Below are positions 1,194-2,682 of a stretch of DNA of 64,000 nucleotides, one piece after another. The first letter of the stretch is position 1. Each line of letters starts with the position of its first letter. The translations under genes and the position numbers were made by a program. The notes under the pieces were generated by a model that had not been told where the DNA came from, did not search any database, and saw only the letters and a program-made list of their open reading frames with translations. Source of the DNA: Mesorhizobium sp. J428 (GTDB lineage Bacteria; Pseudomonadota; Alphaproteobacteria; Rhizobiales; Rhizobiaceae); assembly GCF_024699925.1 (NCBI RefSeq), contig NZ_JAJOMX010000001.1:4936001-5000000 (forward strand), in the 5' to 3' direction.

Positions 1194-2378
1194 TTACCAC
1201 TCGACGAACTGCATCACGCCGCCCTCGTGGTCCGGCGAGTAAGGTCCCGGCTCGTAGGCGGGCGACTTGATGCCGAAGGCGTTCTCCTCGACGATCCGCC
1301 GGTCCTGGTCGTTGGTCTCGGTCCAGACATGGGTGAGCTCGGCAAGATCGTAGTCGACGCCTTCGACCGCGTCCTTGTGGACCAGCCATTTGGTCGTCAC
1401 CGCCGTTTCCGTGGCGCTGATCGGCAGCACGCGGAAGGTCACGGCGTGGTCGCCCAGGATGTGGTTCCACGTTGTCGGATAGTGGTAGAGCAGCAGCGAG
1501 CCGATGCGGTCGGTCGATACGTCGTCGGACAGGTTTTTCCTGACCGCGCGTCTGCCGGTCATCGTGTAGCTGACCGCGTCGCGCAGCAGCGGCACGCGCG
1601 TGGTGCGGTACTGGCCGTCATCGGCGATGGTGAAGCGGCTGGGCAGGCCCGCCGCCTCGCAGCGCTGCCAGTGTCCGACGATCTCGGGATCGCCTTCCGC
1701 GCCCTGCACGCCGGTGACAGTCGGGGCCTCAGGGAAGGTCTTGCACAGTTCGGGATGATTGCCGGCGCAGTGATAGCACTCGCGGTTGTTTTCCCAGACG
1801 AGCTTCCAGTTGCCCTTCTCGACGATCGTGCTCTCGAAGGCGACCTTGGCCTCGGTGAGCCGATGCGGCTTGAAGAACGGCTCGACGGTCGCGCGGAAGG
1901 GGGCAAAATCGGCAGGTTCTTCGGCAAGACAGATGAAGACATAGCCGCCAACCGTCTCGCAGGCGACCGGCTTCAGCGAGAATTGCGACGGATCGAAGTC
2001 CGGTCCCATCTGGCGCGCGAAGAGCAGTTTTCCGTCGAGATCGTAGGTCCACTGGTGATAGGGGCAGACGAGCCGCGCCGAAGCCCCCTTCCCGCCCGGA
2101 CACACCCGGCTGCCGCGGTGGCGGCAGGAATTGTGGAACGCCCTCACCTGCCCTTGCCGGTCGCGCACGATCACCACGGGATAGTCGCCGACCTGCAACG
2201 TCACATAGTTGCCGGGCTTCGGGATCTCGCAGTCATGCGCTGCGAACAGCCAGTCGCGATACCAGATCAGTTCCAGATCGACCTGGAAATAGTCCGGATC
2301 GGTGTAGAACGGCTGCTCGAGACTGTAGCCGTCGCGCCGGTTGCGCAGGCGGCGCAGCATGTCGTTGCGGATATCCAT
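1194..2378 (-). CDS. gbcA: Rieske [2Fe-2S] oxygenase alpha subunit (GbcA type)
   Basis: Ring-hydroxylating-type oxygenase of 394 residues to the first stop. The Rieske ligands are Cys85, His87, Cys105 and His108 (C-x-H-x17-C-x2-H). The mononuclear iron motif [12 protein letters not shown] places His203 and His208. The family splits glycine betaine into dimethylglycine and formaldehyde. The ATG at 2378 ([10 protein letters not shown]) is chosen over an upstream ATG at 2480 because it follows a purine-rich AGGACAGG site and matches where the family begins; the upstream stretch belongs to the riboswitch leader. Oddity: the frame stops at TAA (1194-1196), but the same frame continues for 20 sense codons to a TGA at 1131-1133, just before the gbcB ribosome site, so the true C-terminus may be longer. 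Exact substrate is unproven. Confidence 0.8.
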
Positions 2379-2504
2379 GTCCTGTCCTCGCGGTCCAAGG
2401 ACTGAACTGGTGGTGATTTCAGGGAAGAGCATCCGCGCACGGCATTGCCGGGCACGAAGATCTGCCGCTTGACCGCCCACCGCGATCAGTCGAGTTCATC
2501 ATGT

Positions 2505-2682
2505 CCAGGGCTGGTTTCCGGGCTTCGGAGCCGTCCTGTCGGACTGTCTCGACACCTTCCCGGGTTCGGCACCCAGTGGTCTCCCGTCGAGACGTTCAGC
2601 TCCGCTACCGTTGCGGGGGCAGCGCCGGCCTTTCACCGGCTTCCCAATTCTCCGGCGCGTTCATCGCGCGCCGGCACCTCGG
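2505..2682 (-). promoter_or_regulatory. Cobalamin (AdoCbl) riboswitch in the gbcA leader
   Basis: Read on the minus strand this stretch carries the conserved boxes of the cobalamin riboswitch in the right order. A perfect CCGGCGCG/CGCGCCGG stem (about 2653-2678) comes first. Next are GGGAA and GCTGCCCCCGCAAC within 2610-2645, then ACCACTGG (about 2573-2580), and finally GCCCGGAAACCAGCC at about 2509-2524, the box close to the family consensus GCCNGGAGACCTGCC. It lies about 125 nt upstream of the gbcA ATG on the same strand, in a 388-nt gene-free stretch (2379-2766). I see no clear intrinsic terminator between it and the ATG, so control of translation start is as likely as attenuation. The remaining 84 nt up to the DUF922 gene should hold the promoter, but no convincing -35/-10 pair is visible. 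Confidence 0.93.

Follow-up and report, generated by a model that had tools for sequence, protein, structure and literature searches.

A cobalamin riboswitch ahead of gbcAB-like genes in Mesorhizobium: a probable link to MttB/MtgBCD betaine demethylation

The aptamer, its leader and the two genes behind it

The window analysed here is a 64-kb stretch (64,000 nucleotides) of the genome of Mesorhizobium sp. J428 (assembly GCF_024699925.1, contig NZ_JAJOMX010000001.1, positions 4,936,001–5,000,000). Close to its beginning, on the minus strand, the aptamer of a cobalamin riboswitch stands in front of two genes that resemble gbcA and gbcB, the oxygenase and reductase genes of glycine betaine monooxygenase. 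Why might cobalamin control such a pair? The features from which we approached this question are, in the order in which they would be transcribed:

2767–3375, minus strand: DUF922 protein (Pfam), the upstream neighbour, counted outside the regulated unit.
2492–2696, minus strand: cobalamin riboswitch aptamer (RF00174, 110.7 bits).
2477–2491, minus strand: 5' arm GACUGAUCGCGGUGG, common to a putative bound-state hairpin ("P13") and to the antisequester, by predicted pairing.
2400–2413, minus strand: 3' arm CCACCaguUCAGUC of the putative antisequester (ON state).
2379–2407, minus strand: hairpin GUUC-A-GUCCUUG-GACCG-CGAGGAC-A-GGAC, from the Shine-Dalgarno sequence to the start codon (putative OFF state), in the minimum-free-energy fold.
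1194–2378, minus strand: gbcA-like Rieske oxygenase, 394 residues (Pfam; best NCBIfam model GbcA).
23–1114, minus strand: gbcB-like ferredoxin reductase, 363 residues (Pfam; best NCBIfam model GbcB).

In a cmscan search, the cobalamin family RF00174 was the sole Rfam match above gathering score in the window. The match covers the full model (1–189), runs from 2696 to 2492 on the minus strand, and at 110.7 bits (E 7.4e-27) lies well over the curated cut-off of 31.5. The conserved segments of its alignment are the GGGAA...GCUGCCCCCGC core, the CCACUGG stem and the AGCCCGGAAACC box. From the 3' end of the aptamer at 2492 there are 113 nucleotides to the ATG of gbcA (2378–2376), and the aptamer occupies the predicted 5' leader, and lies on the strand, of the gene it would control. 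A reading of the sequence alone, made without database searches, had claimed a cobalamin riboswitch ahead of an oxygenase/reductase pair, and the Infernal search with the Rfam model that it proposed bears this out with a full-length match on the minus strand. The boxes that it marked, at 2645–2610, 2580–2573 and 2524–2509, coincide with the conserved segments. The span that it gave, 2378–2682, does contain riboswitch, but it extends through the leader as far as the start codon; the aptamer proper is 2492–2696.

The oxygenase carries the Pfam domains Rieske and Ring_hydroxyl_A, with C85, H87, C105 and H108 invariant across 12 aligned rows; the reductase carries FAD_binding_6, NAD_binding_1 and Fer2. 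The sequence-only reading had called the pair a "gbcA-gbcB type" operon, a description that agrees with GbcA and GbcB as the best NCBIfam models, both under their curated cut-offs. Since both proteins score below these cut-offs, the GbcAB name is uncertified, and we tried without success to certify a substrate from the family models. The nearest long frame beyond the window runs towards the pair from the opposite strand (L005 9152–10012, plus strand), so that the operon consists of two genes.

How might the aptamer act upon these genes? A consensus scan of the leader finds no intrinsic terminator, and for this reason a translational switch is preferred to transcriptional attenuation. The hairpin listed above spans the Shine-Dalgarno region, and a competing helix, GACUGA...GGUGG / CCACC...UCAGUC, would release it. 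The 5' arm motif GACUGAUCGCGGUGG occurs in 38 of 57 leaders and both antisequester arms, with all 6+5 pairs, in 32 of the 57, the window's own leader being included each time; as the search patterns fix most of the paired letters, the arm count measures conservation, not covariation. An insert separates the anti-Shine-Dalgarno from the Shine-Dalgarno sequence in L100, L102 and L103, and more distant leaders differ. Forced folds give −46.3 kcal/mol for the ON helix and −43.2 kcal/mol for the Shine-Dalgarno hairpin together with a P13-like stem. This anatomy fits a translational OFF switch. Repression by B12 is what we infer from it, together with the behaviour reported for such isoenzyme genes: in passages of PMC2211319 and PMC3766115, cobalamin riboswitches repress a B12-independent isoenzyme when B12 is present.

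Cobalamin riboswitches and MttB genes in this and related genomes

What else might cobalamin riboswitches govern in this genome? Its 5.88 Mb, in 5 contigs, hold four that exceed the cut-off, that of gbcAB included. One precedes nrdA (NrdA model over its cut-off), behind which a 299-residue frame is, by its position, a putative nrdB; metH lies downstream. Another, strong at 140 bits, precedes mesX–mesD (L006 5939–8336; G000:C1:2151938 onward), recognized by the MesX Pfam domain and by a methionine synthase model over its cut-off. The remaining one precedes a btuB-like receptor, which matches the B12 receptor model best but stays under the cut-off of that model, and the frames after it read as putative transporter genes. 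MesD needs oxygen and neither 5-methyl-tetrahydrofolate (5-methyl-THF) nor cobalamin, according to passages of PMC7857596, in whose main text the word "riboswitch" is absent. Since the three other riboswitches precede nrdA, mesX–mesD and the btuB-like gene, the cobalamin regulon of this genome looks like one of B12 uptake and B12-independent isoenzymes.

For which B12-dependent enzyme, then, might gbcAB stand in? The genome contains four full MttB genes (PF06253). One of them lies in a cluster (L066) with genes for a B12-binding protein, a DUF1638 protein, a methylene-THF-reductase-like protein and a pterin-binding protein. This cluster resembles the MtgB–MtgC–DUF1638–MetF2–MtgD module of Ruegeria pomeroyi, to which passages of PMC12478193 ascribe cobalamin-dependent glycine betaine demethylation and which they report in Hyphomicrobiales; the paper describes MtgBCD from aerobic alphaproteobacteria. 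A B12-dependent counterpart is present in the same genome in the form of this MttB/MtgC/MtgD-like cluster and, since the MtgBCD-like cluster and gbcAB occur together, the genome appears to own two betaine demethylation routes, one requiring B12 and the other oxygen. Another MttB gene is followed by the gene for a DAO-GCV_T dehydrogenase of the dimethylglycine/sarcosine type. Apart from the four full genes, two overlapping partial MttB matches with in-frame stops at a contig end (G000:C1:5314986–5315803) are perhaps a decayed MttB gene.

The switch itself was followed through three sets of genomes. The order set comprised 297 genomes, 62 of which have an oxygenase homologue at E 1e-100 (76 matches); among the 50 best-scoring matches examined, it lies directly upstream in 19 loci, from 18 genomes. 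The named set consisted of the best 80 of at least 583 confirmed loci, and here it occupies the same position in 56. Ranked by falling similarity, the counts are 20/20, 19/20, 10/20 and 7/20; the closest named relative among the matches listed is a Mesorhizobium metagenome-assembled genome (MAG), 93% identical. The class set comprised 385 genomes, nine of them (our own included) with a homologue at E 1e-140, and four of the eight others carry the switch. It is present on pSymB of Sinorhizobium meliloti Ak57 (W01); upstream of the homologue on a Paracoccus plasmid there is none. On the same pSymB an MttB gene is apparently split into two adjacent matches (CP090106.1 910707–912195). The gbcA genes of L147 and L159 (Rhizobium) have neither a riboswitch nor a neighbouring gbcB.

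Comparing the leaders of GbcA homologues with and without the switch, as the sequence-only reading had suggested, provides the strongest evidence, and this evidence points to MttB/MtgBCD. We searched the same genomes for MttB (PF06253, E 1e-50) and could score 79 of the 80 named ones. MttB is present in 54 of the 55 genomes with the switch and in none of the 24 without it (Fisher p 2e-19, kinship not corrected). In the order set, restricted to the 34 genomes whose homologue scores 500 bits or more, MttB accompanies the switch in 18 of 18 (p 6e-5, again uncorrected for kinship), and in the class set in 4 of 4. Some genomes sit in two sets, G298/G150 and G320/G023 having identical coordinates, so that the p-values are not independent. 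An MtgD-like protein, scored in 49 named genomes, is present in 22 of the 25 switch-bearing ones and in none of the 24 others; the three misses are the MAGs L131 and L166, and L175.

Have the genomes without the switch abandoned B12? They have not. The MetH activation domain is found in 47 of 49 named genomes, all 24 without the switch included, and the two misses are MAGs that carry it (L133 and L138). Cobalamin riboswitches at other sites occur in all 35 genomes tested, including those that lack the one ahead of gbcAB.

The sole switch-bearing named genome without MttB and MtgD is that of Rhizobium sp. Leaf371 (L175). Its aptamer (2642–2833) is degenerate: it scores 57.9 bits and has lost both CCACTG and GCTGCCCCCGC, which are kept in L155 and L172. 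The nearest tree row, Xaviernesmea L158, has neither MttB nor switch. Apparently the aptamer of Leaf371 is decaying after the reason for it was lost. The neighbourhood is alike whether or not the switch is there: a DUF6656 gene and Sua5 stand next to gbcA. The former was verified by Pfam in L135 and L147, the latter in L147, and the other loci were judged by likeness. The spacer between the DUF6656 gene and gbcA measures 647–1033 nucleotides at three loci with the switch (L135, L155, L175) and 332–425 nucleotides at four loci without it (L144, L147, L158, L159). At one locus, L190 (G044), switch and gbcAB are followed by a convergent gene of the dimethylglycine-dehydrogenase type and an MttB gene.

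Because the switch is kept almost only where MttB is present, gbcAB looks like a backup for B12 shortage. We consider it likely that it is a riboswitch-controlled, B12-independent stand-in for MttB/MtgBCD in glycine betaine demethylation, that is, an O2-dependent glycine betaine N-demethylase and an isoenzyme of the MttB/MtgBCD of the same genome. When cobalamin is plentiful, ligand on the leader aptamer would favour the hairpin over the ribosome-binding site and leave gbcAB untranslated, and the methyl groups of betaine would pass via MtgB and MtgC to tetrahydrofolate. Under cobalamin shortage, the leader would adopt the antisequester fold, gbcAB would be made, and betaine would be oxidatively demethylated to dimethylglycine and formaldehyde. 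Family names and genomic context suggest that the two enzymes share this net reaction, with glycine betaine as their common substrate. Of the explanations that the sequence-only reading had offered, the B12-independent bypass survives, and co-distribution supplies the bypassed enzyme, which that reading had left unnamed, in MttB/MtgBCD; the supply of methyl groups hardly does, since genomes without the switch retain MetH and other cobalamin riboswitches. Nor need a bypass have a "real substrate" that "is different", as that reading had supposed, for glycine betaine can stay the substrate of both routes.

Points against the stand-in reading, and its alternatives

Several observations weigh against gbcAB as such a stand-in; they concern the leader, the integrity of gbcA, the substrate and the distribution of MttB. 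In the leader, the free minimum of −47.2 kcal/mol keeps the Shine-Dalgarno hairpin plus the inner GGUGG/CCACC half of the antisequester, and this fold, which covers the Shine-Dalgarno region, lies 0.9 kcal/mol below the antisequester fold. The whole leader is not more stable than its shuffles (z −1.27). The folding energies neither demonstrate nor exclude a ligand-free ON state.

In gbcA, an in-frame TAA (1194–1196, minus strand) cuts the window gene short by 21 codons relative to its close relatives. All 23 relatives listed read past this position, and in the window the frame stays open behind the TAA as far as the ancestral stop. Is the operon then a decaying copy, with GbcA inactivated by the early stop and the riboswitch a leftover? 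Such decay would be compatible with the other readings, but it seems doubtful to us, with the aptamer and leader intact, the Pfam domains matched and gbcB open over its full length. Compared with a 93% identical relative (L097), the window gene has 88 synonymous and 26 non-synonymous codon differences; since these are mostly synonymous, any damage would be recent, or else a sequence error. The TAA is possibly an error of sequencing or assembly, and the 21-residue tail may be dispensable.

Does the pair act on glycine betaine at all? The oxygenase reaches 514.1 bits with the GbcA model (NF058607), whose curated equivalog cut-off is 670, and the reductase 357.1 bits with the GbcB model, whose cut-off is 500. 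The three best matches of the oxygenase in the PDB are near-equal, at 556–565 bits; two are named ring-hydroxylating dioxygenase and one "Monoxygenase; demethylase", and none is named GbcA. A homologue on pSymA of S. meliloti (L181), which we take to be Stc2, the demethylase of proline betaine (stachydrine), belongs to the same Rieske subfamily and is 60% identical to the window oxygenase. Because of the missed GbcA cut-off and this identity, a different betaine is a possible substrate. A member of the MttB superfamily acts on proline betaine. Many genomes have several MttB genes, paralogues of which may act on other amines. MttB relatives that act on carnitine and gamma-butyrobetaine are cited in PMC12478193.

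That gbcAB is the isoenzyme for another quaternary amine (proline betaine, carnitine or similar), in place of another member of the MttB superfamily, we nevertheless judge unlikely. L181 sits in a separate 14-row group beyond a strongly supported branch (100/99), the window oxygenase falls outside this Stc2-type clade, and the two clade neighbours of L181 have no switch although MttB is present in their genomes. Relatives in the 55-row core clade of our tree have gbcA next to genes of betaine transport, formaldehyde or dimethylglycine type. On Paracoccus pTAV3 they include the glutathione-independent formaldehyde dehydrogenase gene fdhA, a BCCT transporter gene, folD and electron-transfer-flavoprotein genes; on Agrobacterium pAt1D1609a, fdhA and genes for a glycine betaine ABC (ATP-binding cassette) transporter; and in Sphingomonas L160, genes for a DAO-GCV_T dehydrogenase and a molybdopterin oxidoreductase. 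Such neighbourhoods fit the conversion of glycine betaine to dimethylglycine and formaldehyde.

Could the co-distribution reflect kinship only? In that case switch and MttB would both be old in Mesorhizobium-like lineages and would both have been lost in Rhizobium/Agrobacterium, without any functional tie. MttB does occur without the switch, in 6 of 16 such genomes of the order set and 2 of 4 of the class set. Three genomes of the same family (G105, G229, G248) have 6–9 MttB genes and no gbcA at threshold; MttB therefore does not require gbcAB. A careful 80-row tree requires a minimum of 12 changes for the switch and of 9 for MttB. This tree yields seven independent pairs that differ in the switch on well-supported branches; MttB differs the same way in 4.2 of them (mean), the contrary way in none, and is unchanged in 2.8 of the 7 (mean), giving a sign test p of 0.03–0.25. 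A quick 98-row tree yields five pairs, of which 2–5 go the same way and none the contrary way.

Of the 55 rows of the core clade 53 were scored: 39 have both switch and MttB, 13 neither, one the switch only and none MttB only. Taken alone, this clade gives four pairs, three of them the same way (p 0.25), or four of four if the decayed aptamer is scored as lost (p 0.125). Outside the clade, nine rows have both, seven neither and eight MttB only, so that MttB persists in 8 of the 15 rows without a switch. It follows from these counts that the switch nearly always implies MttB, and that the reverse implication is confined to the core clade. The direction is consistent, and the number of independent events does not suffice for a firm test. 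Independent losses are few and the sign test rarely reaches 0.05, as kinship alone would have it; we still think that explanation rather improbable. Scattered losses match (Agrobacterium vitis L168, Xaviernesmea L158, Sphingomonas L160 and G727), the core clade has no contrary pair, the MttB-less Leaf371 has a decaying aptamer, and MetH and the other riboswitches are not lost.

Industrial B12 production makes use of betaine, which would suit a role of gbcAB in supplying one-carbon units (formaldehyde to methylene-THF) for methionine, S-adenosylmethionine or corrin methylation under B12 shortage. Such a role is very improbable, even though a riboswitch of this class also precedes mesXD, which encodes a methionine synthase independent of folate, in the window's genome. 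The switchless named genomes keep MetH and other cobalamin riboswitches and should still require methyl groups when B12 is short, yet they are without MttB and MtgD, and MesD depends on neither 5-methyl-THF nor cobalamin (passages of PMC7857596).

Related systems and neighbouring riboswitch units

Which known systems does a B12-independent stand-in of this kind resemble? The riboswitches of metE and nrdAB, the counterparts of MetH and NrdJ, belong to the same aptamer family and follow the same isoenzyme logic. Unlike these, gbcAB is catabolic, its fold and chemistry are unrelated to those of the B12 enzyme (O2-dependent oxidation as against methyl transfer), and it would yield formaldehyde, not methyl-THF. 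The glycine betaine monooxygenase GbcAB of Pseudomonas and Chromohalobacter has a like domain make-up and the same best NCBIfam models, whereas the window pair scores below both equivalog cut-offs and stands under a riboswitch. In Pseudomonas, expression is induced by the substrate. MtgBCD of R. pomeroyi, with a like module in this genome, would perform the same proposed net step; it needs cobalamin, not oxygen, and passes the methyl group to folate (passages of PMC12478193), whereas gbcAB is proposed to be oxygen-dependent. GbcAB as a B12-independent stand-in is not discussed in those passages, and "riboswitch" occurs in the main text only in the cited title of a paper on the glycine riboswitch. 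The word "oxygenase" is absent from the main texts of PMC3766115, PMC2211319 and PMC2667541, the five occurrences of "dioxygenase" in the last being unrelated.

In the open-licence part of PubMed Central we found no literature linking gbcAB, cobalamin riboswitches and MtgBCD and, among the matches listed for ardX/frdX, no title on an alphaproteobacterial oxygenase pair. Rodionov et al. reportedly described in 2003 an oxygenase/ferredoxin-reductase pair, 'ardX-frdX', under B12 elements in alphaproteobacteria, and are said to have given it neither a function nor a B12-dependent partner. The sequence-only reading likewise mentioned B12 elements before such pairs in comparative genomics. A riboswitch on a B12-independent isoenzyme is already known; what is added here is the MttB/MtgBCD partner, the co-distribution and the controls. 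We incline to the view that MtgBCD and GbcAB form a third isoenzyme pair under cobalamin riboswitches, after those of methionine synthase and ribonucleotide reductase, and perhaps the first catabolic one, in which corrinoid transfer is set against Rieske oxidation in many rhizobia, and that the gbcAB switch is selected only while the corrinoid route exists and then decays.

Such a pair would explain a riboswitch target that seems out of place and would name its B12-dependent partner. On this model gbcAB is predicted to be a B12-shortage gene through its riboswitch, and B12 supply would decide whether rhizobia convert betaine to methyl-folate without oxygen or to formaldehyde with it. This matters for how rhizobia use osmolytes, balance one-carbon units and manage B12 in soil and nodules. 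If true, it would also speak for MtgBCD functioning as a betaine demethylase in Hyphomicrobiales on land.

Other riboswitch units adjoin gbcAB in several relatives. In L193 (G751:C1:4849841–4850364) two riboswitches stand back to back, one facing gbcAB and the other the genes for the large and small subunits of ribonucleotide reductase. In L129 the back-to-back riboswitch heads a TonB receptor gene, and in L111 gbcAB has metH on one side and another riboswitch–TonB receptor unit on the other. A second, divergent cobalamin riboswitch of 136 bits is present in L031 (813–1017, minus strand), followed by a short frame without a Pfam match and by a LysR-type regulator.

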